Positions 2,261 through 36,511 of a DNA stretch of 36,511 nt are shown one piece after another. Positions within the stretch are counted from its first letter, which is position 1, and each line of letters opens with the position of its first letter. The translations under genes were made by a program, and so were the position numbers. The notes under the pieces are model-generated. The model did no database searches, had not been told where the DNA came from, and saw only the letters and a program-made list of their open reading frames with translations. Origin of the DNA: a virus; the IMG/VR virus record IMGVR_UViG_3300042392_000256, positions 1 through 36,511 of that record; one strand, 5' to 3'.

Positions 2261-2324
2261 GCTTTCGTTTAGACCGTGATGTAACGGCATACACGGATTA
2301 TAAGCGGGCTAATACACATTTCAA
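2261..2324 (-). promoter_or_regulatory. Minus-strand operator-promoter-hairpin cassette
   Basis: Read on the minus strand: -35 TTGAAA (2319-2324), 16-bp spacer, -10 TATAAT (2297-2302). The operator palindrome TATTAGCCCGCTTATA (2299-2314) overlaps the -10. The leader contains ATGCCG and a hairpin CCGT-TACATC-ACGG (2274-2287), then the GAAAG ribosome-binding site. This is the same architecture as the four plus-strand cassettes at 5461-6889, without their upstream AT-rich box. It should start a second minus-strand transcript covering 49-2254. Confidence 0.75.
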
Positions 2325-2335
2325 CACTTTGTTGA

Positions 2336-2668
2336 TTATTCTGTTGCTTTTATGCCTTGGCGTTCGTTAGCCGATTCGGTGCGCCATATTTCCGTTTTTA
2401 AAGTAGCCGCGGTTAAAGTCCATTTGTAGGCTTCTTCCGTTTCTATGGCAACGGCTAACCCGCGCAATAATTCCTGATATTCGGGATGCGCATAGGCTTC
2501 GCGTTCCTGTGCCGCCGCGCTTTCGTAACCCATTTGCATCGCGTCTTTCATTAGCAACGCTTTTTTGGTCTTACGGAATTCTTCCAAGTAAATGCGTTCG
2601 GCTTTTGCTTTGGCGTACTTGGGCGCGTTTTCAATGATGTAGTCAACGGCTTTGTAAGGTGCGTTCAT
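2336..2668 (-). CDS. Conserved helical phage protein, unknown
   Basis: Protein of 110 aa, almost all helix: a basic N-terminal half (KYAKAKAERIYLEEFRKTKK) followed by EYQELLRGLAVAIETEEAYK and a C-terminal ANERQGIKATE. The pattern is familiar from early regions of phages carrying ERF/YqaJ modules, but I cannot name it. It overlaps the nuclease start by one base (TAATG type). The -35 of the downstream cassette promoter begins just after its stop. Coiled-coil DNA-associated role is possible but unproven. Confidence 0.7.
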   Translation of the reverse strand: MNAPYKAVDYIIENAPKYAKAKAERIYLEEFRKTKKALLMKDAMQMGYESAAAQEREAYAHPEYQELLRGLAVAIETEEAYKWTLTAATLKTEIWRTESANERQGIKATE

Positions 2669-2931
2669 TAGATTACCCCAATCATTCGTAGTGCGGCTTC
2701 AGGGCTATCAATGCGGCAAAGTGTCCCACCGTGCCAAGTTTCAAAGAAGTCGGCTTGTAGCCCCGTCAAACGCGCTTTATTTGTGCTTTTAATTTCTACC
2801 AAGAATGTGTGACCGTGATAGCCAACCAACAAGTCAACGGGTAGGCTAATAATCCATACCGATGCACCCGCGGCGCGCAAGGCACTAACGATTTGTGTTT
2901 GGTTTGCATCAACCCTTGCGGCGTATCGCAT
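2668..2931 (-). CDS. VRR-NUC / PD-(D/E)XK resolvase-like nuclease
   Basis: Protein of 87 aa. The core is PVDLLVGYHGHTFLVEIKS, giving the catalytic set D33, E46 and K48 of the PD-(D/E)XK fold as seen in VRR-NUC and archaeal Holliday-junction-resolvase-like proteins. The length is that of a minimal VRR-NUC domain. The likely role is cutting branched DNA during replication or packaging; this is from the family. It overlaps the DUF7696-like gene by 23 bases. Confidence 0.82.
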   Translation of the reverse strand: MRYAARVDANQTQIVSALRAAGASVWIISLPVDLLVGYHGHTFLVEIKSTNKARLTGLQADFFETWHGGTLCRIDSPEAALRMIGVI

Positions 2932-3121
2932 TTTTATCCTTTACTGTATTCATTCTTTGCTTTAATTCATCAGCGGCTGCTTGCCCGCGTTTGTTGGCAA
3001 TGTCTTTAATTATCTTGTTCCACCATTCAATTGCTTCGCCCTTTCCTTCTTCCAGTTGCTTTTTGCGAAAACGCGCAACCCATTCCCGCGCTTCACAATC
3101 TTTAAAGTGTTCCATGTCCAT
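2909..3121 (-). CDS. Small helical protein (DUF7696-like)
   Basis: Protein of 70 aa from the ATG at 3121; a TTG three bases upstream is a poorer start. The N-terminus (MDMEHFKDCEAREWVARF) and the later ANKRGQAAADELKQRMN segment resemble small phage proteins that I recall as DUF7696. It is rich in Lys and Glu and probably a helical hairpin. It overlaps the 40-aa gene upstream by 20 bases and the nuclease downstream by 23. Function unknown. Confidence 0.6.
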   Translation of the reverse strand: MDMEHFKDCEAREWVARFRKKQLEEGKGEAIEWWNKIIKDIANKRGQAAADELKQRMNTVKDKNAIRRKG

Positions 3122-3224
3122 CAATATCGCCAGTTAATTCCAAGGCTTTGAGAATTACCCATTGCGGGTAATGCACACCTTCGCGCACCCTGTCTAGGAT
3201 TCTCATAGCCGTTTCGTATGTCAT
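3102..3224 (-). CDS. 40-aa conserved phage microprotein
   Basis: The ORF encodes MTYETAMRILDRVREGVHYP followed by QWVILKALELTGDIDGHGTL. It is coupled to the Mom-like gene by an ATGA overlap at 3221-3224. The pattern M-x-YETAxRILxRVREGxHYP followed by a helix ending LELTGD looks like a small phage family seen in early operons (recalled, not checked). It may be a small helix-turn-helix-like or adaptor protein; no function assigned. Confidence 0.65.
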   Translation of the reverse strand: MTYETAMRILDRVREGVHYPQWVILKALELTGDIDGHGTL

Positions 3225-3877
3225 GCAAATAAAAGTTGTTGTGTTTTGACAATGCCGCCCGCATCGTAGCGTTTAGATTCGCCCTTGGGGTACGGCAATA
3301 CGGGATAGGTTAGTTCACGCCGCAATTTCTGTTTATGGGTTTTGCTGCCCACAAAATATACATAACGATGTTTACGCGCCCGTTCGACAAAATAAACATT
3401 TTCTTCACCAAACTTTTCGATTACTTGGGCGTTGGTCATCCCATGCGCAAAGGTTGTATGGTGCAAGTGTTCCAAGCCTTTTACACGCGGGTCTTTAAAC
3501 TTTGAACTTAGGCCCGTGTAAATGAAGTTTGTGGCTTGGTAAACATAACCTATGTGGCCTTGTTCTGAATCAGCGTAAGAAACCACAATTGCGGGCTTGG
3601 GCAACATTTCCATTGATTTGGCGACCAATTCCGATGCAATGTTTTTTTTGTTCAAGCAAACAAGGCGGTTTAGTTCGATTACATTTTCTTCCCATTTCTT
3701 TCCGCATACGCCTTGGCGTAGGGTAGAACTTGCTGATGTGCCGTATGTCACTACGCCAATCAATTGGTCATCGATGTAAGCGCCAAACGCATACGAAATT
3801 GATGGCATACGCTTGGCATAGTGTTTTTCAAGTAACCAAGGTTCGGTTTCAAAAGTGTTAATGGGCAGAACTTTCAT
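3221..3877 (-). CDS. Mom-like adenine-modification protein (GNAT-fold)
   Basis: Protein of 218 aa. The layout matches phage Mu Mom and its relatives, GNAT-fold enzymes that alter adenine in phage DNA (methylcarbamoylation in Mu) to resist host restriction. Visible blocks: HYAKRMPSISYAFGAYID (residues 19-36), the GVVTYG strand (41-46), VIELNRLVC (66-74), IASELVAKSMEMLP (80-93), and VVSYADSEQGHIGYVYQATN (98-117), followed by FIYTG. The C-terminus carries PYPKGESKRYD. It lies in the early operon between a 40-aa protein and the P-like loader and overlaps both by four bases. Anti-restriction use here is inferred from family. Confidence 0.82.
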   Translation of the reverse strand: MKVLPINTFETEPWLLEKHYAKRMPSISYAFGAYIDDQLIGVVTYGTSASSTLRQGVCGKKWEENVIELNRLVCLNKKNIASELVAKSMEMLPKPAIVVSYADSEQGHIGYVYQATNFIYTGLSSKFKDPRVKGLEHLHHTTFAHGMTNAQVIEKFGEENVYFVERARKHRYVYFVGSKTHKQKLRRELTYPVLPYPKGESKRYDAGGIVKTQQLLFA

Positions 3878-4269
3878 GCTTCGCCCTTAAACTGTTTTTT
3901 CAAGTCGGCAAGTTTTGCCAATGCTTCGGCTTTAACCCTATCGGCTTCGATTTGCTCATGCAGCGTTTTCTTGCGTTCAATCTGAACCAATGGCTTAACG
4001 GGAATTTCAGGGCCGCTATTGCAAAGGTTTCTAAACTTGATTGCGCTTGGCACAAATTCACCGTCAAGTTTTGCTATGGCAAAGTCCATGCTTGGGCGGT
4101 ATGTCAGGAATCTACCTAGTTGGTTTTTCCATTCTTCGCGTACAAATTCAGGGTCTAAGCCATCAAAGTGACGATTAAACGGCGCACCAAATATTGCCAT
4201 CATTCGACCAAAAATATAGTCTAGCCCTTGGTCTTGGGTGCAAAAATCAGTTTCCAAGTAGTTTGACAT
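3874..4269 (-). CDS. Replication protein P-like helicase loader
   Basis: Protein of 131 aa from the ATG at 4269. The Shine-Dalgarno GGAGGT at 4277-4282, seven bases upstream, decides this start over a GTG at 4278. The block FGRMMAIFGAPFNRHF, then EEWKNQLGRFL and FVPSAIKFRNLC, matches the pattern of lambda P/DnaT-like loaders, where a helical domain ends in F-x-PSxxxFxxxC. The C-terminus is a charged helix that could contact DnaB. It follows directly on the DUF1376 replication gene, as P follows O in lambda. Host DnaB recruitment is from family knowledge. Confidence 0.72.
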   Translation of the reverse strand: MSNYLETDFCTQDQGLDYIFGRMMAIFGAPFNRHFDGLDPEFVREEWKNQLGRFLTYRPSMDFAIAKLDGEFVPSAIKFRNLCNSGPEIPVKPLVQIERKKTLHEQIEADRVKAEALAKLADLKKQFKGEA

Positions 4270-4975
4270 TGCTACCACCTCCGATTAAGCCACGCGTTAA
4301 ACCTGAAATAACCCGTTGGTTCATTTGGCCTGTCTTGCTTAAATTGCGTTCATCAGGTTTAAGCCAATCTGCTTGCAGCCCTTGCGAACCTCTAGCGCAC
4401 CAAACACTTAAAAAATCTTGAAACGCCATGTTTGCTTTGGTCGCTTCTTTTCTTGCGCTGTTAACCACGGTTTCGGTTACGGGTGCTTTCTTGGCTTTGC
4501 GCAATTGTTTCCAATCATCCCAAATTTGTTGTTCAACATCGGGGGGGCAATCAACGCCAGTTGATTTATCTTTCTTTAGTTTATGGTTTATAGTTTCTAG
4601 TTCTTGGTTTATAGTTGCCTTAACGATGGGTTGCGAATCGTTACCCATTGGGTTAGCGGTTGGGTTCTTTTTCCTACCGCCTAGCCGCCCATTGGCCCTA
4701 TTTTTCTCAGCCATCGCGTGATATTGCTGAATAACATCTTGGCATCGGGCATTGAACCAACCATCTTCATGCCTAACAAACATATCACTTAGCACGGTTT
4801 CAACCGTTTTGGTATCCAACCGCAACCGCCTTGCAACCCATTGGGTATCCAACGGTATTTTGTTTTCGCTGTCGTAGTACATATCAAGCAAACGCCGATA
4901 TGCCAAATCTTCATCGTTTGATAGATGAACCGTTGCCGACCGATAGTCGGAAATATTAAATTGGTAATAGTGCAT
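4247..4975 (-). CDS. DUF1376/YdaU-type replication initiator
   Basis: Protein of 242 aa from the ATG at 4975, which has GGAG eight bases upstream; a TTG at 5047 would add 24 residues and was rejected. The N-terminal ~90 residues (MHYYQFNISDYRSATVHLSN, then EDLAYRRLLDMYYD) are the DUF1376 winged-helix domain of phage O-like replication proteins. A basic link (RLGGRKKN) precedes a low-complexity segment (TINQELETINHKLKKDK) whose DNA holds two 19-bp repeats, the probable origin. The C-terminal part (QIWDDWKQLRKAKKAPVTET onward) is the usual DUF1376-protein tail domain. Confidence 0.85.
   Translation of the reverse strand: MHYYQFNISDYRSATVHLSNDEDLAYRRLLDMYYDSENKIPLDTQWVARRLRLDTKTVETVLSDMFVRHEDGWFNARCQDVIQQYHAMAEKNRANGRLGGRKKNPTANPMGNDSQPIVKATINQELETINHKLKKDKSTGVDCPPDVEQQIWDDWKQLRKAKKAPVTETVVNSARKEATKANMAFQDFLSVWCARGSQGLQADWLKPDERNLSKTGQMNQRVISGLTRGLIGGGSNVKLLGN
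4577..4616. repeat. Putative origin iterons inside the initiator gene
   Basis: Two 19-bp direct repeats at 4577-4595 and 4598-4616, each TAGTT-NN-TGGTTTATAGTT, match at 17 of 19 positions and have a 21-bp period (two helical turns). The region is AT-rich. In lambda the origin iterons lie within gene O, and here the repeats lie in the low-complexity linker of the O-like gene. Origin function is inferred. Confidence 0.5.
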
Positions 4976-5034
4976 TTCTGCATCTCCGCAAAACTCCCAA
5001 AAAGAAACGGCGGCAGGCGGGGAGTACGCTTTTC

Positions 5035-5056
5035 GGTTGGGTAGCAACTCCCAACC
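5035..5056. other. 7-bp stem hairpin upstream of the initiator gene
   Basis: GGTTGGG (5035-5041) pairs with CCCAACC (5050-5056) around an 8-base loop. It lies in the 103-base gap between the 65-aa gene and the DUF1376 gene, on the minus-strand transcript. No U-run follows, so a plain intrinsic terminator is unlikely; attenuation or mRNA processing is possible. The rest of the gap holds only the initiator's ribosome-binding site. Confidence 0.45.
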
Positions 5057-5078
5057 TAGCCGTGTTTCAAAAATTGTA

Positions 5079-5276
5079 TCAAAGAATCATCATCGTGTGC
5101 AAATCTTTGCGTTCTTCATGGGTCATAAAATAATAAAACCCTTGCGTGTAATCCTTGTGCAAGTGATAGCAAATCAGGTGATACAAAGAATCTTCCATCG
5201 ATTGATTTGCATAAGCAAACCCAAGGTGTTCCATCATCAAAGATTTGTGATGTAGGTACTTTTCTATTTTTGTCAT
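5079..5276 (-). CDS. Small protein coupled to the repressor gene, unknown
   Basis: Protein of 65 aa from the ATG at 5276 (MTKIEKYLHHKSLMMEHLGF at the start). That ATG overlaps the repressor stop as ATGA; a longer start at 5285 would lie inside the repressor gene. It is rich in His, Tyr and Met, with HLICYHLHKDYTQGFYYFMT in the second half, but has no clear zinc pattern. It could be a partner of the repressor or an early regulator. No homologue recognised. Confidence 0.6.
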   Translation of the reverse strand: MTKIEKYLHHKSLMMEHLGFAYANQSMEDSLYHLICYHLHKDYTQGFYYFMTHEERKDLHTMMIL

Positions 5277-5425
5277 TTGAACCAATCAGGTTTGAGTAAC
5301 TTTAATTGCCAAAGCCTAGCCGTAGGAATTTCTTTCCATTGGCTAATTGCCGATTGCGAAACGCCAAGCAATTCCGCTAATTCGGTTTGATTGCGTACCT
5401 TGGTTAACAATTCTTGTTTAGTCAT
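5273..5425 (-). CDS. 50-aa Cro/YdaS-like HTH repressor
   Basis: The ORF starts MTKQELLTKVRNQTELAELL and continues GVSQSAISQWKEIPTARLWQ, ending LKLLKPDWFK. QTELAELLGVSQSAISQWK (residues 13-31) is a classical helix-turn-helix of the Cro/YdaS type. At 50 aa it is smaller than lambda Cro (66 aa) and has little beyond the HTH, so it should bind palindromic DNA as a dimer. It is the first gene of the minus-strand early operon. Its own promoter carries one of the seven copies of the 16-bp palindrome, which makes it the obvious candidate binder (inference). No second CI-like gene or integrase is visible. Confidence 0.82.
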   Translation of the reverse strand: MTKQELLTKVRNQTELAELLGVSQSAISQWKEIPTARLWQLKLLKPDWFK

Positions 5426-5430
5426 GCCTT

Positions 5431-5459
5431 ATTATAAGCCAACTTATAGATTGTGGCAT
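5431..5459 (-). promoter_or_regulatory. Repressor promoter with operator; probably leaderless mRNA
   Basis: On the minus strand the -10 is TATAAT (5431-5436) with a weak -35 ATGCCA (5454-5459, 17-bp spacer). The operator TATAAGCCAACTTATA (5433-5448) covers the -10 and most of the spacer. The -10 ends only five bases before the ATG at 5425, so transcription should begin at or very near the start codon, as for lambda cI from PRM. Autoregulation is inferred from the operator position. Confidence 0.65.
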
Positions 5460-5460
5460 A

Positions 5461-5568
5461 GGTGAAACTACTTAGAAAATATTTTTAAAAAGTTGTTGAC
5501 ATGGCTATTAGCTAGCTTATAATTTACCCATGCCCTAAACAAACAGGGTCTTTTAAAAGGAAACAAAA
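5461..5568 (+). promoter_or_regulatory. Cassette 1: UP-like box, promoter, operator, leader hairpin
   Basis: The AT-rich upstream box spans 5461-5480 (GAAACTACTTAGAAAAT core). The -35 is TTGACA (5496-5501), spacer 16 bp, -10 TATAAT (5518-5523). The operator TATTAGCTAGCTTATA (5506-5521) fills the spacer and -10. The leader begins ATGCCCT and has a hairpin CCCT-N8-AGGG (5533-5548), followed by a purine-rich AAAAGGA ribosome-binding site before the ATG at 5569. Four sister copies exist, three on this strand. Confidence 0.85.
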
Positions 5569-5802
5569 ATGGCTTACTCAACAACATCACACACACAACA
5601 AATGGTCATTGCAGATTTCATTGCTACTGCACAAACCAACGGTATCTGCAACCTGTGGGCTTGCTTGCCAAAAACACACAAATTAGTTTTGACAAACCGT
5701 GTTGGTCAAATCCGCAAAGTTACCGATGCAATCGCTTTTGGTTTTGATGAACTTGGCAACCGTGTACGTTTGACCCCTGACCTCCGCGTACTGCAAGATT
5801 AA
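5569..5802 (+). CDS. Cassette 1 cargo: 77-aa unknown protein
   Basis: The protein starts MAYSTTSHTQQMVIADFIAT and includes LPKTHKLVLTNRVGQIRK and a C-terminal FDELGNRVRLTPDLRVLQD. It looks like a small mixed alpha/beta protein with a basic middle. No homologue recognised. It is the only gene between its own operator-controlled promoter and a GCAA-loop hairpin at 5807-5820, so it is a one-gene transcription unit. Strong consensus promoter and early position suggest a host-takeover, anti-defence or regulatory protein (inference). Confidence 0.75.
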   Translation: MAYSTTSHTQQMVIADFIATAQTNGICNLWACLPKTHKLVLTNRVGQIRKVTDAIAFGFDELGNRVRLTPDLRVLQD

Positions 5803-5806
5803 AAAC

Positions 5807-5820
5807 GGGGCGCAAGCCCC
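5807..5820 (+). other. GCAA-tetraloop hairpin after cassette 1 gene
   Basis: GGGGC (5807-5811), GCAA loop (5812-5815), GCCCC (5816-5820). The loop is of the stable GNRA type. No U-run follows, so it could be a weak terminator, a 3'-end stabiliser or a processing signal. An almost identical hairpin lies at 7059-7074. Confidence 0.55.
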
Positions 5821-5823
5821 ATT

Positions 5824-5932
5824 AGGGAAACTACTTAGAAAATAATTTAAAAAAAGTGTTGACCTGAATATTAGTTGGCTTATAATTCACCCATGCCCCG
5901 AACTTCTTGGGGACTACTAGAAAGAAATCAAA
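5824..5932 (+). promoter_or_regulatory. Cassette 2: UP-like box, promoter, operator, leader hairpin
   Basis: The upstream box lies at 5824-5843. -35 TTGACC (5859-5864), 16-bp spacer, -10 TATAAT (5881-5886). Operator TATTAGTTGGCTTATA (5869-5884). Leader hairpin CCCCGA-ACTTC-TTGGGG (5896-5912), with one G-U pair, then AGAAAG as ribosome-binding site before the ATG at 5933. The box-to-promoter distance equals that of cassette 1. Confidence 0.85.
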
Positions 5933-6175
5933 ATGACAAACGCAACACTCAAACAAGTAATCGAAACAAAGCGCAACGAACGCGCTGCTACTGAAGTTCG
6001 CTTTGCAAAAGCCAATGCCGCCCAAGCAGCCAAGATTGCTAAATTCACACCCCGTACAGATTTGCACCCCGCAGTTGGCGTATTGATTAACGCCAAGGGT
6101 GTTCGTTACTACGCGTTTGTTGGCGGTGTGTATCGTGAGGGTACGCCCGAACACTTGGCGGCTTTGTTGGCTTAA
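5933..6175 (+). CDS. Cassette 2 cargo: 80-aa unknown protein
   Basis: The N-terminal half is a basic, Ala-rich helix (MTNATLKQVIETKRNERAAT, then AKANAAQAAKIAKF). The C-terminal half (VGVLINAKGVRYYAFVGGVY, then REGTPEHLAALLA) looks like a small beta domain. No family recognised. First gene of the cassette 2 transcript, followed after 13 bases by an 81-aa gene. A nucleic-acid or protein-binding inhibitor is plausible but not shown. Confidence 0.75.
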   Translation: MTNATLKQVIETKRNERAATEVRFAKANAAQAAKIAKFTPRTDLHPAVGVLINAKGVRYYAFVGGVYREGTPEHLAALLA

Positions 6176-6188
6176 TTAGGGGGCTAGG

Positions 6189-6434
6189 ATGTACGACAAA
6201 ACAACCCATGCCCGCGTAGTTGCTGCAAACTACTTTTGGAATGGCATTACAGAAGAACAATTGTGGGCAAACATAAATGGCATTTGGGACAAGCCTACAA
6301 ACTATGCTTTGTCACACATCAAAGCAGGGATTGCGCAATTAGAAAGCCGCGGCATTTTGACAAAAGAAGAAGCGCAAAATTGCCTTAAAGAAACTTTAAA
6401 AATGCGTAAAAACAACACTAGGGAAAATACTTAG
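6189..6434 (+). CDS. Second gene of cassette 2: 81-aa unknown protein
   Basis: The protein starts MYDKTTHARVVAANYFWNGI and includes ITEEQLWANINGIWDKPTNY and a helix LSHIKAGIAQLESRGILTKEEAQ, given in parts as LSHIKAGIAQLESRG and ILTKEEAQ. GGGGGCTAGG just before the ATG serves as ribosome-binding site. The last codons (encoding RENT and stop) lie inside the upstream box of cassette 3, so insertion or duplication of that box seems to have reset this gene's C-terminus. No function recognised. Confidence 0.72.
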   Translation: MYDKTTHARVVAANYFWNGITEEQLWANINGIWDKPTNYALSHIKAGIAQLESRGILTKEEAQNCLKETLKMRKNNTRENT

Positions 6435-6519
6435 AAAATAATTGTTGACCTACATATAAGTTGGCTTATAATTACACCATGCCCCAAACTTCTTGGGGTC
6501 TTATAGAAAGGCAAATTAA
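6420..6519 (+). promoter_or_regulatory. Cassette 3: UP-like box, promoter, operator, leader hairpin
   Basis: Box at 6420-6439, only five bases before the -35, ten fewer than in cassettes 1 and 2. -35 TTGACC (6445-6450), 16-bp spacer, -10 TATAAT (6467-6472). The operator TATAAGTTGGCTTATA (6455-6470) is a perfect palindrome in its arms. Leader hairpin CCCCAA-ACTTC-TTGGGG (6482-6498), then GAAAGG before the ATG at 6520. Confidence 0.87.
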
Positions 6520-6780
6520 ATGACCGCAATCCTTAAAGCAGCAATGGCAATCGATGAATTGGCTAACACCCTTCAGCAAATTGCCCGCGATGACAATAAG
6601 CAAGTTACCGATTACACCAATGCCGAAATCGTGCATGAAGCCAAGTATGTTCTTAGTTGTTTCCATGAAGATGGTCACTTAAACAATGAAGATTACAAAG
6701 GTGAAAACGGTGAAGAACAATACAAATGGGCAGTTGGTCAAGTTCGCAAGTTGAACGCGTTTATTAAGAAATTTGCATAA
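6520..6780 (+). CDS. Cassette 3 cargo: 86-aa acidic unknown protein
   Basis: The protein starts MTAILKAAMAIDELANTLQQ and continues with helices (NAEIVHEAKYVLSCFH), an acidic loop (EDGHLNNEDYKGENGEEQYK) and a C-terminal basic helix (VGQVRKLNAFIKKFA). It is the only gene of its transcription unit. The acidic, helical make-up could suit a DNA-mimic or protein-binding inhibitor, but no family is recognised and this is speculation. Confidence 0.75.
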   Translation: MTAILKAAMAIDELANTLQQIARDDNKQVTDYTNAEIVHEAKYVLSCFHEDGHLNNEDYKGENGEEQYKWAVGQVRKLNAFIKKFA

Positions 6781-6790
6781 AACACACACT

Positions 6791-6889
6791 AGGGAAAATA
6801 CCTACAAAATAATTGTTGACCTGTATATAAGTTGGCTTATAATTCACCCATGCCGCAAACATCTTGCGGTCTTTTAGAAAGAAACCAAA
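6791..6889 (+). promoter_or_regulatory. Cassette 4: UP-like box, promoter, operator, leader hairpin
   Basis: Box at 6791-6810, five bases before the -35. -35 TTGACC (6816-6821), 16-bp spacer, -10 TATAAT (6838-6843). Operator TATAAGTTGGCTTATA (6826-6841), identical to cassette 3. Leader hairpin CCGCAA-ACATC-TTGCGG (6853-6869): the C-to-G and G-to-C changes relative to cassette 3 keep the pairing. Ribosome-binding site AGAAAG precedes the ATG at 6890. Confidence 0.87.
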
Positions 6890-7051
6890 ATGACACGCTC
6901 AGTTATCAAAACATCTTCAGGCTTTGTAGTTTATGGCGCGTTCACTTGCATGATGCGTTTAGACATAAACGGCAATGTAATTTATTCCAACATGACCCCC
7001 GATTCAAAAGAATACAAAGCCATGTTGCGCACCTTCAAAAAATCAATCTAA
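6890..7051 (+). CDS. Cassette 4 cargo: 53-aa unknown protein
   Basis: The ORF starts MTRSVIKTSSGFVVYGAFTC and continues MMRLDINGNVIYSNMTPDSK, ending with a basic helix EYKAMLRTFKKSI. It looks like a three-stranded sheet followed by a helix. The ATG sits at the same distance after the leader hairpin and AGAAAG as in the sister cassettes, which is the main reason to call it. No homologue recognised. A GCAA-loop hairpin follows its stop. Confidence 0.72.
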   Translation: MTRSVIKTSSGFVVYGAFTCMMRLDINGNVIYSNMTPDSKEYKAMLRTFKKSI

Positions 7052-24006: not shown

Positions 24007-26003
24007 GCGCGACCCCTGTTAACCGCCAATGATTTATTAGCGTACTGATTTGCCGCCCAAATCGCGTTAGAACTACCATACAAGCGTTCTTCAAACGATT
24101 TGGTATCAATGGCGTTAATGTAGTTGTTTGTAACATTGGTAGTACCTCCCGCGCCCGCTAAAGCATGGTTAGGAATTACTGTACCCGATGAACGGGGAAC
24201 AAACAGTTCAGGCCCGCGTTCACCTACAACATAAGGCGTATTGGCATTAGCAGAACCGCCATCGGCTAAGAACCCGCCAAGGTCTTGATTGCCAAAAGCA
24301 TTGCCAGTACCAAAACCACCGCCCGCGTACATACCAAACAACGATTTAAACAAACCCGTTGCTGATGCGCGTAATTGAATTGCAATCAAATCTTGAATGA
24401 TGCTACGGGCCAAAGATTTAAACGATAACTTACCCGTGCGCACAAAGTTATCTAACGCGCTTTCCATGTTGCCCATTACGGATTGAAAAGCCTTTGCACC
24501 GTTTTCTAATTCTGTTGGCAAGTCGCGGAAAAACTTAGCGCCTTCTTTAAAGAAACCTTGTTCGCCCGTGCCTTCGCGCTGCGCTTTAACCGCTTGGTTT
24601 TGTGCGCGTAGATAGCGTTCGGTTGCATCGGCTAATGCGTTTTCTCTTTGTACTAATTGTTCTTTAGCATCGGCATCTAACATATTGTTGCGGTTAATTT
24701 CTTGTATAGCATCTAACCGTTTTTGTTCTGACAAATACAAATCCTTTGTTAGTTGCGCATCTTCCGAACGCATACCCATTGTTTTTTGGTCAATAAATAA
24801 CAATTGATTTTTAATTTGCAAATTGCGTTCTTCATTTTCAATACGCTTTGCTTCTTTTGTATATGCGGCTACTTGTTGACCTTCAATTTCAAAAAGTGTT
24901 TTCGCATATTTTTGCGCTTCACGGTTTGCGTCTTGAATTGCTTTTAATCTTGCTTTTTCGGCGGCTTCAGCATCTTTATTACGCGCTTCAATTACTTTTC
25001 TTCCACCACTAGCGGCAGGGGATTTATTGTCGGTGCGGCGTTCATCAACACCACTACGCCCGTAACTTGTCCCCATTACTTGCGCTTCAAAAAAATCTAA
25101 ATTTTGGCGTTGTGCATTTCTATACGCATCGTATTTTTTGTTTGCCGCAATAGCCGCATCAACACCTTTAGTAACCAAGGTAACGGCGTTGTTATAAGTA
25201 TGCTGAATTTCATCAGCAATGCCTTTAAAAACAAACGCAACATTTGCACCAAGTACGGCAACGGTTTGGAATACAACTTTAAAAATGCCGCCAAGCGAAA
25301 CCCCGTAATCACTCATTGTTTTTATGTAATCAATGGTAGATTTCAGGATTGGGCCAAGTTGGGTAGCCAACACTAACATCACATCACGCGATGTTTGCGC
25401 TAACAAATCGTAGGTATCTGCGGCGGCTTTAATTGCTTTTTCTTGTTCTGCAATCAGCGGGTTTGCTTGTGCCATCTTTTCAGCAAAGCCAACCATGTCA
25501 ACGCCTTTGGCGGCTTTGCCAAAAACTTCCATTGCTTTAGCGTTGCGGGTAATCGGGTCCTCAACCGCCGCCAAGTTGGTAGCCAACTTATTTAGCAATT
25601 CTTCTTGGGAAAGTTTGCCCAAGTCTTGCAAAGTAACGCCCAAAGCCTTGGCGGTTTTCTGCGCTTGTTCTGAACCGCCCGCGGCTTCGTCAATAAACTT
25701 GGCAAACGCCGATAGCATCTTGCCCGCGTTATCCGCTTTGCCGCCTGAATTAGCAAGCGCGTTAGATAACTGTAAAACCGTGCCTATGGCTACTTCGTTG
25801 GCTTCGGCTACATCGGCTAGTTCATCGGCATATTGAAGCGCCGCGGCACTAGCAGCAACCAAAGCAGTTGCGCCAATCTTGCCAAACTTTTCAGCGGATT
25901 CGCTAAACTTTTCTAATTTCTTTCCCGCGGCTTCAATGCCTTTATTGAATTCCGCGGTATCTATACCAAGGGCTACGCCAAGGCGGGCAATCATATTAGC
26001 CAT
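24003..26003 (-). CDS. Tail tape measure protein
   Basis: Protein of 666 aa, mostly helix and coiled coil. The start (GIDTAEFNKGIEAAGKKLEK) is typical of tape measure proteins. The C-terminal block (LDNFVRTGKLSFKSLARSII, then QDLIAIQLRASATGLFKSLF) is the lambda tail-tape-measure domain, followed by a Gly-rich region (YVVGERGPELFVPRSSGTVI). Using about 0.15 nm per residue, the tail should be near 100 nm. It overlaps the T-like frame by eight bases. Confidence 0.93.
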   Translation of the reverse strand: MANMIARLGVALGIDTAEFNKGIEAAGKKLEKFSESAEKFGKIGATALVAASAAALQYADELADVAEANEVAIGTVLQLSNALANSGGKADNAGKMLSAFAKFIDEAAGGSEQAQKTAKALGVTLQDLGKLSQEELLNKLATNLAAVEDPITRNAKAMEVFGKAAKGVDMVGFAEKMAQANPLIAEQEKAIKAAADTYDLLAQTSRDVMLVLATQLGPILKSTIDYIKTMSDYGVSLGGIFKVVFQTVAVLGANVAFVFKGIADEIQHTYNNAVTLVTKGVDAAIAANKKYDAYRNAQRQNLDFFEAQVMGTSYGRSGVDERRTDNKSPAASGGRKVIEARNKDAEAAEKARLKAIQDANREAQKYAKTLFEIEGQQVAAYTKEAKRIENEERNLQIKNQLLFIDQKTMGMRSEDAQLTKDLYLSEQKRLDAIQEINRNNMLDADAKEQLVQRENALADATERYLRAQNQAVKAQREGTGEQGFFKEGAKFFRDLPTELENGAKAFQSVMGNMESALDNFVRTGKLSFKSLARSIIQDLIAIQLRASATGLFKSLFGMYAGGGFGTGNAFGNQDLGGFLADGGSANANTPYVVGERGPELFVPRSSGTVIPNHALAGAGGTTNVTNNYINAIDTKSFEERLYGSSNAIWAANQYANKSLAVNRGRA

Positions 26004-26361
26004 CTTTTACCCCAAACTTTGTTTTATCAAATCCGTTTGCCTGTGACATGAACGCCAATAGACTATCGTTTACCGCCGCCTTTTGTTGTTCTGCGGTCAA
26101 AGGCGGGTAGATGTAATCATACGCACTACCCAAAATGTTGGCTAGTTTATAAGGCGATGAATTTGCGGGGCGCATATAGTTAAACACGCCATTGGTTAGG
26201 GTCGCCAATTGCGTAAGAATCCCGTAATTCCCAATCAACCCATCGGCATACATCGTTTGAATGTTTGCCAAGGTTACATCGTCTAATTCTTCAATTGTTT
26301 CTAGGGTATGCCCGTTGAAAATCATTGCTGCTAGGCATTGGCTTTTCAACGAGCCTATTAG
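25996..26361 (-). CDS. T-like part of the tail assembly chaperone, made by -1 frameshift
   Basis: This frame encodes 121 aa after the slip and has no proper start of its own; the first possible start is a TTG at 26349 with no ribosome-binding site. It is open through the G-frame stop, so ribosomes slipping at GGGAAAC (26361-26367) make a G-T fusion of about 281 aa. The segment includes CLAAMIFNGHTLETIEELDD and SAYDYIYPPLTAEQQKAAVN. In lambda, gpG and gpGT load the tape measure for tail assembly. Confidence 0.8.
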   Translation of the reverse strand, partial: LIGSLKSQCLAAMIFNGHTLETIEELDDVTLANIQTMYADGLIGNYGILTQLATLTNGVFNYMRPANSSPYKLANILGSAYDYIYPPLTAEQQKAAVNDSLLAFMSQANGFDKTKFGVKDG

Positions 26362-29642: not shown

Positions 29643-30659
29643 TTAGGCGGCAGACATACGAACACCCGCGAACGGGTCGCGCACGGTGCTTACCATTCGT
29701 TTTTCCGCGTACATAGTCACGAAACCCGCTTGTGTTTGTTCAAACATTTGCACCGACATTTGTTCTGTATCGCCGATTGTCAAAAAGCGATTCCAGTTTG
29801 CCAAGTAAATCGGGAAATCTGTAGAAAGGTATGGGTTGGGGATAACGGGCCAACCAAACACGCGACCAACGGCAGCACCATCAGCATCGCCAATTTCCAA
29901 GAACAAAGGCAAGCCTTGGCTATCTTTCAATTGACGTAATGTTTGAATCATTGCAGGGCTAATTTGCCAAGCGGTAGATTCTAGCGACCAATATTGGGCG
30001 GGCAACGCGTTAGCCATGTTGACCATCTTGTTGTATGTCACCGCAACGCCGCCGTTACTAACCGTAGCGATAGTATGTATGCCATCTGTAATAGCCGTAC
30101 CACTAGAACCATAAGCGCTAGTAGCGCCGCTAGTGTAACTATCCAAACCACGCAAACCATCAGTAGCGCCAGTTGATGTAGTTGTGCTACCCGATTGGTC
30201 ATCGTTAAGAACCATTGATTGGCCTTCAAGTTGCGCAAATTCAAGCGCCAAATCTTCAACCAATGTTGCATCAAGTCCATTAACATCACTTAGCACCGCC
30301 GTTCTGATGGGCAATTGTGCAACCAACACGCGCACGGGCAATTGCCAAATAGAAGTGTCAACATTAGGTGAACCGCTATTAGGCGTAAATGTGTAACCCC
30401 AAGGGTTTGTAGAATTTGCGGCGTTACCAGTCTTGGCAACGAATTGGGCATCAGAGCCGTTAACCGCGATTTGGCGTGAGCCTTGACGCAAAGGATTTGC
30501 TTGGCGCAAAGCCGCAAACGCATCATCAAATACAACATTACCACCAACACCCGAACCCGAACCAGTAATGGCGCTTGCTTCACGCAAATCGATATTTACT
30601 TTGCCGCCTTCGGTGATGGCCTGTTTGATTCCGTTCAAGATTTTTTCGGTGATAGACAT
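29643..30659 (-). CDS. Second HK97-fold major capsid protein, no long delta domain
   Basis: Protein of 338 aa, clearly paralogous to the 446-aa capsid gene upstream. Shared blocks include FAALR.ANPLR..SR, DTSIWQ, FPIRTA..D..GL, GLRGLD.Y, LP.QYW, and SVRDPFAGVR at the C-terminus. The paralogues align from REASAITGSG (27-36) onward, so only ~26 residues precede the mature fold instead of ~105. AGGAA precedes the ATG. A role as minor or vertex capsid subunit, or a cement-like subunit, is inferred. An intrinsic terminator separates it from its paralogue. Confidence 0.88.
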   Translation of the reverse strand: MSITEKILNGIKQAITEGGKVNIDLREASAITGSGSGVGGNVVFDDAFAALRQANPLRQGSRQIAVNGSDAQFVAKTGNAANSTNPWGYTFTPNSGSPNVDTSIWQLPVRVLVAQLPIRTAVLSDVNGLDATLVEDLALEFAQLEGQSMVLNDDQSGSTTTSTGATDGLRGLDSYTSGATSAYGSSGTAITDGIHTIATVSNGGVAVTYNKMVNMANALPAQYWSLESTAWQISPAMIQTLRQLKDSQGLPLFLEIGDADGAAVGRVFGWPVIPNPYLSTDFPIYLANWNRFLTIGDTEQMSVQMFEQTQAGFVTMYAEKRMVSTVRDPFAGVRMSAA

Positions 30660-30720: not shown

Positions 30721-32061
30721 TTAGGTCGCTGTGCCTGTGGAACGGTAACGCACACCCGCGAATGGGTCACGAACCGATGTAGCCAAACGCTTTTCGCCGA
30801 AGAATGTGATAAATCCGGGGGCTGTTTGGTCGTAGCGGCGCATAACCATGTTCAAACGGTCAACGATTGTGTGGAATCGTGACCAGTCAGCAAAGTACAT
30901 TGGGTACAAACTAGAAGTACCCGCAGAACCTGTTGTTGTCTGTGATGGTGTATCGCAATACTTGTTAACCACAACATCAAAGCCCATCAATTGGCCTACG
31001 ATACCTTCAACCGACAAACCTTCGTTACGGTTAAAGATAGGTGCGCCGTTGTTGTCTTTCAATGCACGAATTGCGTTCAACAAGATTGGGCTAATAACAA
31101 ACTTAGCGTTTGCAGTCCAGTATTGTTGTGGCAATTGGTAAATGAAGTTAACCACATCGGTATAAGTGATGTTGTTAGCGCCAACGGTGTTAGCGTTAGT
31201 GGTCAATTGGTCATAAGTAGCAAGGCTATGCAAACCGCTTGTAGAACCAGTACCGCTAGTACCAAATGCCGCTGTAGTGCAAGTGCCGCCTGTGTAGGTG
31301 CTGTTAGAACCCGCGTATTGGTCAAGGCCACGCAAACCGTTAGAACCGCCGTATGGCAAAGATGTAGAACCTTGGTCGTTGTTCTGAATCATTGACAAGG
31401 CTTCAGCTTGGCTGAATTCCATCAACATATCGTCAACCACATTGGCTTCCAAACCATCAATATCATCCAATGCAGCAGTACGGATTGGGAATTGTACATT
31501 CAAGTCTTGCAAAACGATTTGCCAGATAGATGTATCTTCAGTTGTAGCCGCGCCGTTGTTCTGAATTGCATAGCCCCATGCTGCGCCCGCATTTCCGATT
31601 TTTGACCGGAATTGATAGCTTGAACCATCGGTTGCTACGGTGCGTGACACGCCGCGCAGGGGATTAGCCAAACGCAATGCAGCAAACACGGGGTCATAAG
31701 CGGTGCGACCACCTTGGTTGTTACCTGAACCTGTCAAAGCGGATGCCTCGGTCAAGTAGGCTTGCATTTGTGATTCGTCAGCAAAGATTTTCAATTCTTT
31801 TTCTACGCGGTTGTTACCTTTGTAGAAAGAAGCCAATTGTTCTTTAACAGAACGGTTCACATCGCCGCGCACGGTTGTAGCGGGCTTGACGATTGCAGGG
31901 GCTTGAATAGATGCTACTTTGGCTTCCAAAGAAGCTACCAGTTCGCTAAATTCTGCTTTAACCGCTTCAACGGCGGCGGGGATTTTTGCTTCAACGGCGG
32001 CAATGCTTTCGCTTTGCTTGGCTTCGATAGCATCCAGTTTTTCGATAATTGCTGTGGACAT
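30721..32061 (-). CDS. Major capsid protein, HK97 fold with N-terminal delta domain
   Basis: Protein of 446 aa. Residues 1-~105 are a coiled-coil scaffold (delta) domain (IEKLDAIEAKQSESIAAVEA, then AVEAVKAEFSELVASLEAKV). The HK97 fold follows from TEASALTGSG. Marks of the fold include DPVFAALRLANPLRGVSR, LQDLNVQFPIRTAALDDIDG and the C-terminal KRLATSVRDPFAGVRYR. The protease gene upstream should remove the delta domain during maturation. It starts three bases after the protease stop. Confidence 0.93.
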   Translation of the reverse strand: MSTAIIEKLDAIEAKQSESIAAVEAKIPAAVEAVKAEFSELVASLEAKVASIQAPAIVKPATTVRGDVNRSVKEQLASFYKGNNRVEKELKIFADESQMQAYLTEASALTGSGNNQGGRTAYDPVFAALRLANPLRGVSRTVATDGSSYQFRSKIGNAGAAWGYAIQNNGAATTEDTSIWQIVLQDLNVQFPIRTAALDDIDGLEANVVDDMLMEFSQAEALSMIQNNDQGSTSLPYGGSNGLRGLDQYAGSNSTYTGGTCTTAAFGTSGTGSTSGLHSLATYDQLTTNANTVGANNITYTDVVNFIYQLPQQYWTANAKFVISPILLNAIRALKDNNGAPIFNRNEGLSVEGIVGQLMGFDVVVNKYCDTPSQTTTGSAGTSSLYPMYFADWSRFHTIVDRLNMVMRRYDQTAPGFITFFGEKRLATSVRDPFAGVRYRSTGTAT

Positions 32062-36086: not shown

Positions 36087-36435
36087 CTACTTCGGATGCC
36101 TTATTTTTAATCTTTGGGCGACCCCTTGCCACTAACGCTAATTCGGCAAGTATCTTTATGGCCTTATCCATTGATTCGGTTCTTATCTTGTAGTACGGGC
36201 TTGGCGCATCACCCGCGTTGTAATGATAAATCGCGCCATTTTCCAAAAGTCCAATGTGCGCCTGTACCAAAGTATCCACCACCAAAACCAACGAACCAAC
36301 TAACAGTTCATCGGATGCTGTTAGTGCGCCTGTTGAATTTTCAACTTCGTTTCTGATGGCGGTTTCAAATGCGTCTGCGTTCCAAGTGCTTGGATTACGC
36401 AAAAAGCCAATGATTTGTTTGGGTGCTTTTTTCAT
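36064..36435 (-). CDS. terS: Terminase small subunit, P27-like
   Basis: Protein of 123 aa. It starts MKKAPKQIIGFLRNPSTWNA and has a helical core (LTASDELLVGSLVLVVDTLV) and the ending ALVARGRPKIKNKASEVDEL typical of P27-type small terminases. It recognises the packaging site and recruits TerL. Only a weak AAGAT precedes the ATG. First gene of the late minus-strand block; the packaging site should lie close by, in 36436-36511 or 1-48. Confidence 0.78.
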   Translation of the reverse strand: MKKAPKQIIGFLRNPSTWNADAFETAIRNEVENSTGALTASDELLVGSLVLVVDTLVQAHIGLLENGAIYHYNAGDAPSPYYKIRTESMDKAIKILAELALVARGRPKIKNKASEVDELFATA

Positions 36436-36511
36436 TTTTTTATCTTAAACGGTTTGTTGCGTATTAGCAACCTTATAACCCCCCCTAACTTTGTCTTTCT
36501 ACGAAAGAAGC
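36436..36511. promoter_or_regulatory. Right-end region with operator-like palindrome and hairpins
   Basis: No gene. TATTAGCAACCTTATA (36462-36477) fits the TATWAG-N4-CTTATA operator exactly. No good -35 exists at the expected distance on either strand, so it is an operator-like site rather than a clear promoter. GTTGC-GTATTA-GCAAC (36456-36471) forms a hairpin overlapping it. A run of seven C lies at 36479-36485, and CTTTC-TAC-GAAAG (36495-36507) is a second inverted repeat. The cos site may be here. Confidence 0.6.

Follow-up and report, generated by a model that had tools for sequence, protein, structure and literature searches.

We find that the dispersed palindrome TATWAG-N4-CTTATA in the genome of a freshwater phage is part of a repeated promoter-leader cassette, and we consider it likely that this phage, lambdoid in layout and with no CI found, is run by one small autoregulated Cro through matched operators. 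The sequence is IMG/VR record IMGVR_UViG_3300042392_000256, analysed whole and called the window below (36,511 bp). The basis is observed: the sites and their placement, the family of the Cro, covariation of operator with recognition helix and within a leader hairpin, duplication of the cassettes and reshuffling of their cargo genes. The original prediction had described an operator regulon of seven palindromes and one micro-repressor; the operators are real, though the description was incomplete, the operator being one element of the duplicated unit.

The palindrome matches exactly, on at least one strand, at each of the seven positions first proposed, and the same pattern read backwards has no match in the window. 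When a symmetrised matrix built from the six promoter-linked sites is run across the window, the seven sites are the top seven (15.2–23.3 bits), followed by position 25994 at 14.3 bits and then by a match at 9.9, and Markov shuffles of order 1, 2 and 3 give 0.085, 0.04 and 0.02 matches at or above the weakest site. Many equal matches inside structural genes, named beforehand as the outcome that would speak against the sites, did not occur, because across seven near-complete genomes (35–39 kb, the window among them) 36 of 38 sites are centred outside every ATG-started open reading frame (ORF) of at least 60 aa in six frames, though such ORFs span about 95% of the DNA. The sequence at 25994–26009 was considered as an eighth operator and rejected as weak; it has one mismatch, is retained in all seven genomes and lies at the conserved start of the tape-measure gene, which we read as probable coding constraint.

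The sites are symmetric and six of the seven overlap a promoter -10. As had been proposed, five lie on the -10 of near-consensus TTGAC/TTGAA-N16-TATAAT promoters, four on the plus strand (5506–5521, covering spacer and -10 of the first cargo promoter, and 5869–5884, 6455–6470 and 6826–6841 in cassettes 2, 3 and 4) and one on the minus strand (2299–2314, with TTGAAA-N16-TATAAT and a counterpart in relatives +2.1 to +3.5 kb from cro). The sixth, 5433–5448 on the minus strand (TATAAGTTGGCTTATA, a perfect palindrome), covers the promoter of cro itself, also as predicted.

By sequence and modelled fold, the 50-aa product of cro (5273–5425, minus strand; MTKQELLTKVRNQTELAELLGVSQSAISQWKEIPTARLWQLKLLKPDWFK, with the recognition helix beginning at Q24) is a P22-type Cro, and the Cro-like label given to it at the outset was sound. 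It scores 36.7 bits against the P22_Cro family PF14549 (curated cut-off 30.2), and a profile built from its relatives retrieves P22 Cro as the top PDB match. AlphaFold2 models it with five helices (pLDDT 86.6), and Foldseek places P22 Cro (PDB ID: 1rzs) and then N15 Cro at the top with probabilities of 0.98–1.00; for 1rzs the probability is 1.00 and TMq 0.77, with an E-value of 0.15 that is poor, as expected at 50 residues. The cro promoter is without a good -35, and since the AUG lies 5–7 nt past the -10 and a Shine-Dalgarno-like motif is found in 0 of 84 cases, the cro mRNA is predicted to be leaderless.

The operators are very probably bound by the small Cro, because operator and recognition helix covary, because an operator occupies an autoregulatory position at Cro's own promoter and because no other protein of the window matches HTH_3; what had earlier been deduced from position and symmetry is thus strongly supported by comparison of sequences. 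A scan of viral contigs gave 21 close relatives (82–98% identity) and 5 more distant full-length ones, besides weaker partial matches. All 21 close relatives carry TATWAG-N4-CTTATA, with at most one base changed, at the cro and divergent promoters, and at the cro promoter the form is TATAAG- or TATTAG-N4-CTTATA in every one, consistent with an AAG-N4-CTT core. The pattern is absent from both promoters in the 5 distant relatives, which bear GTAAAT-N4-ATGTAC or a one-base variant instead. From the 158 relatives that a profile scan confirmed, the best 80 were used, and regions upstream of cro were searched blind, that is, for paired 6-N4-6 dyads without use of the Cro sequence. The half-sites found are mostly TATAAG, TATTAG and TATAAC where the first residue of the recognition helix is glutamine (Q24), mostly GTTAAN, GTAAAN and GTACAT where it is arginine (R24), and mostly TGTAAG and CGTAAG where it is leucine (L24), the 6-N4-6 layout being constant across the three classes. 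GT-type half-sites occur in 8 of 9 R24 helix/operator pairs versus 0 of 20 non-R24 pairs (Fisher p = 2e-6, ignoring relatedness).

Two cases add weight to this. Phages of the R24 clade L062–L066 keep the upstream dyad, hairpin leader and leaderless cro start, yet have a different operator. The second case is L154, which has an R24 Cro and a homologue (61% identity, E = 2e-35) of the 86-aa cargo gene of the window; its cassette lies 1.25 kb from cro and carries the operator GTTAATTTAGATTAAC, of the form GTTAAT-N4-ATTAAC, in contrast to TATAAG-N4-CTTATA in the window. R-type -10 boxes (AACAAT, TACACT) depart further from TATAAT, as though the needs of the operator outweighed those of the promoter. 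A correlation of lambdoid Cro helices with operator half-sites has already been reported (Hall et al. 2005, cited in PMC4488713), so that what we describe is a known rule in a new series.

Alignment of the copies shows a unit of about 100 bp. It consists, in order, of the dyad TAGGGAAANTACYTA, an A-tract, TTGAC, the operator and, where +1 is expected, AUGCC, followed by a hairpin, by GGTCTTTTAGAAAG and by the start codon; the operator spans most of the spacer and the initial bases of the -10. Four units lie on the plus strand. Cassette 1 (5458–5568) has dyad, A-tract, promoter, operator, hairpin leader and ribosome-binding site, and cassette 2 (5821–5932) has the same parts and is preceded by a GGGGCGCAAGCCCC hairpin; cassettes 3 and 4 occupy 6418–6519 and 6789–6889. 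The dyad stands upstream of the -35 at 5459–5473 (where it reads TAGGTGAAACTACTTA), 5823–5837, 6419–6433 and 6790–6804, and is retained across the Cro specificity classes. Searched for across the window as TAGGG-N5-CCCTA with up to two mismatches it gives 15 matches versus 15 expected, so it is notable solely for its fixed position in the cassettes.

The leader hairpins differ in sequence: the 5′-terminal GCCCT..AGGGT in cassette 1 (5532–5549), CCCCGA..TTGGGG in cassette 2 (5896–5912), GCCCCAA..TTGGGGT in cassette 3 (6481–6499), GCCGCAA..TTGCGGT in cassette 4 (6852–6870) and GCCGT..ACGGT in the minus-strand cassette (2273–2288). Among 77 distinct cassettes the distance from the -10 to the A of AUGCC is exactly six bases in 71, and the stem varies in a compensatory manner, with 115/115 cells paired. 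Its covariation score is 0.391 compared to 0.140 in shuffles, none of 500 shuffles reaching 0.391, and the signal is lost with slid partners. Folding of single leaders is not significant against shuffles (z from -1.5 to +1.2), leaving covariation as the support for the hairpin. Stem-loops at the 5′ end are known to stabilise mRNA (PMC7509114), and by analogy the leader hairpin may act as one here. The leader AUG was also considered as a conserved upstream ORF and rejected, as 41 of 77 leaders stop ahead of the cargo start and all three frames are present.

Every cargo gene or small operon is served by a separate operator and promoter, much as first suggested. On the plus strand, cassette 1 precedes a gene of 77 aa (5569–5802; cargo family 5), cassette 2 a gene of 80 aa (5933–6175; family 2) and a second of 81 aa (6189–6434), cassette 3 the 86-aa gene with the homologue behind an R-type operator in L154 (6520–6780; family 3) and cassette 4 a gene of 53 aa (6890–7051; family 8); the minus-strand cassette precedes a gene of 30 aa (2162–2254). 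None of the cargo proteins of the window matches a Pfam family above its curated cut-off, and what PHROG matches they have are very weak; the 77-aa protein matches neither database, and no member has a known function. The 77 cassettes lead to 69 distinct first-gene proteins in 23 families, and genes and leaders have been reshuffled, since a single cargo family is found behind up to six leader types. The position of the cargo genes suggests an early, host-directed role. The members of cargo family 6 (L050:8931, L058:5342, G010:24888) are of 129 aa, begin MAYKFNDGGRKDAGYKGVCGDCGVRAMAIA and have Cys and His residues that are enzyme-like in look. In most of the R24 and L24 phages sampled there is a single cassette, located at the divergent region; L154 has two, as do the Q-type L155 and L160. 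Since other clades are mostly single-cassette, multi-cassette arrays are typical of the clade of the window. Compared to named phages and plasmids, cassette DNA gives only short partial matches, covering at most 32% of the query, which we read as A-tract matches.

The mechanism that we propose is as follows. Early in infection all cassettes would fire together from their near-consensus promoters, because no Cro would yet be present, and the resulting mRNAs, each with a 5′ hairpin, would yield small, probably host-directed proteins. Cro would meanwhile accumulate from its own promoter and its predicted leaderless mRNA. Probably as a dimer, it would bind TATWAG-N4-CTTATA at its own promoter, restricting its own synthesis, and at the four plus-strand cassettes and the minus-strand one, where it should exclude RNA polymerase because the operator sits in the spacer and overlaps the -10. 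Accumulated Cro would thus turn down all early promoters together.

A further reading concerns the cassettes themselves, which we put forward tentatively, as a possibility and not as an expectation: they may be a plug-in array for the early genes of CI-less phages, in which a portable promoter-operator-hairpin unit has been duplicated, cargo genes pass from unit to unit when the repeats recombine and each operator is an address that has to match the resident Cro, so that specificity classes form separate cassette pools. It is unlikely that Cro and its matched operators serve mainly to mark immunity between CI-less phages that infect the same cell, with a resident Cro silencing the early cassettes of a newcomer of the same class. 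At least three classes of specificity do exist among related phages, a usual pattern in immunity systems, and the early cassettes of one phage are all of one class, but we see no sign of lysogeny or of Cro being present before infection, and feedback turn-down requires no immunity role.

Two other explanations dispense with Cro as the reason for the palindrome. That it is the site of a host regulator, borrowed to time early genes to the state of the host, we hold to be very improbable: the half-site changes in step with the recognition helix of the phage Cro, and cro's own promoter bears a perfect palindrome, even if the separate conserved dyad TAGGGAAANTACYTA, present before most cassettes, leaves room for a second factor. 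It is also conceivable that the palindrome is a by-product, with TATAAT making the right half and recent duplication of the promoter having copied the left. The four plus-strand cassettes are clearly duplicates and the right half does overlap the -10; yet the sites at cro, 2299 and terS have different flanks, the left half is part of no promoter box, and R-type operators stay symmetric as the -10 departs from consensus, so we give this explanation scarcely any credence.

The seventh site, 36462–36477 on the minus strand, is the weakest and overlaps not a -10 but the -35 of a candidate promoter of terS (TTGCTA-N17-TAAGAT, 36435–36480). It had been counted among the distributed early sites; it belongs instead to terS, with no early cargo gene, and lies outside the range (2297–6889) given for the regulon. 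Of 8 distinct regions upstream of terS, 5 have the complete palindrome and 3 a decayed right half. The spacing is conserved in relatives, and because the candidate promoter places +1 at the terS AUG this mRNA, too, is predicted to be leaderless. The ends of the record (36480–36511 and 1–50) lie within an intergenic stretch between HNH and terS, which is continuous in genome G005 and carries a CTTTC-TAC-GAAAG hairpin; it is possibly the cos region.

Several points weigh against regulation by a lone Cro. The terS site is hard to fit with a purely early-gene turn-down, and the conserved dyad TAGGGAAANTACYTA may bind a second regulator. On a Cro tree computed without the helix columns, which is poorly resolved, about two changes explain R24 and a single origin is possible, so the covariation argument rests on few independent events; a tree-based test of independent pairs reaches no significance, with few columns and events. 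In subclades with the helix KQPAVAQ or QPAVAA the dyads are degraded or unrecognised. What we infer from sequence is that Cro binds, dimerises and represses, when it does so, that it acts as the early-gene switch first suggested, and that the cargo proteins are directed at the host. Finally, the records are metagenomic and their completeness is not established, so that a missing CI or integrase is no proof of absence.

The rest of the genome is lambdoid in layout, with two arms diverging from a single short control region, one with cro, a small gene and a DUF1376/O-like replication gene, the other with the cargo genes, an ERF annealing protein and a YqaJ exonuclease. Neither mark of a lambdoid immunity switch, a divergent CI-type repressor or an integrase, was found: there is no S24/CI repressor in the eight records searched, nor does the window hold an HTH_3 match besides Cro, and tyrosine integrase PF00589 has 0 matches in 8 records, the control being positive in all 14 genomes and serine integrases not having been searched for. 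By TerL the closest named phage is Methylophilaceae phage P19250A (60.5%), in which tblastn found no Cro and a VRR-NUC nuclease is the first plus-strand gene of the divergent region. A search for the host through Cro in genome contigs gave a single weak Pseudomonas match, and no host was assigned. Elsewhere in the window lie a Mom-like DNA modification protein (3221–3877; phrog_1384, PF25680) and two adjoining genes that match the major head protein family phrog_10 (29643–30659 and 30721–32061).

The three classes form a natural series of 50-aa repressors with matched operators, useful for tests of how helix and site change together. The regulon as proposed also suggests how a phage in which no CI is found could run a synchronised, self-limiting early programme, and how new small genes could be added without rewiring. 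The signature of the cassette (operator, +1 AUG, covarying hairpin) can serve as a search key for early, possibly anti-host genes.

Dispersed operators had been presented as a departure from known phages, and in this the original prediction went too far, as P1 C1 and the L5-type stoperators already show many scattered sites. By protein the nearest system is P22, whose Cro belongs to the same Pfam family above cut-off and is the best PDB match by sequence and fold, and whose operators have an AAG-N4-CTT core close to TATAAG-N4-CTTATA; the Cro of the window is shorter (50 aa versus 61), no partner CI/C2 was found, and P22 operators stand only at OL and OR whereas these stand at separate cargo promoters. 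A similar distribution is seen in phiC31, where CIBs, inverted repeats of about 17 bp, lie at early promoters throughout the genome and all bind one repressor; that repressor is a temperate actinophage protein unrelated to the Cro of the window. Among open-licence papers we found none on Cro-only virulent phages or phiC31 CIBs, and no description of a Cro-only regulon of repeated promoter-operator-hairpin units with exchanged cargo in a CI-less phage.

Phage P1 likewise has a single repressor, C1, with 22 operators across its genome (PMC8546580), but these are asymmetric 17-mers bound by a lysogeny repressor, compared to symmetric 16-mers, a Cro and no lysogeny genes found here. The stoperators of L5 and TipsytheTRex, repressor sites that number more than 20 and are scattered over promoters and intergenic gaps (PMC9283540), are asymmetric 13-mers read by a monomeric repressor of about 180 aa that also stops elongation; the sites of the window, in contrast to asymmetric sites oriented with transcription in both promoters and gaps, are symmetric, at promoters and in 6 of 7 cases on a -10. 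The start-associated sequences (SAS) and extended SAS (ESAS) of cluster K mycobacteriophages are also repeated gene-start elements, which precede some of the genes and of which about half contain inverted repeats (PMC3203893), though SAS are proposed to act in translation initiation with a binding partner that is not known, whereas the repeat described here holds a full promoter and operator. Set beside these systems, the CI-less, Cro-only, cassette-based distributed regulon is a new variation on known distributed-operator regulons.

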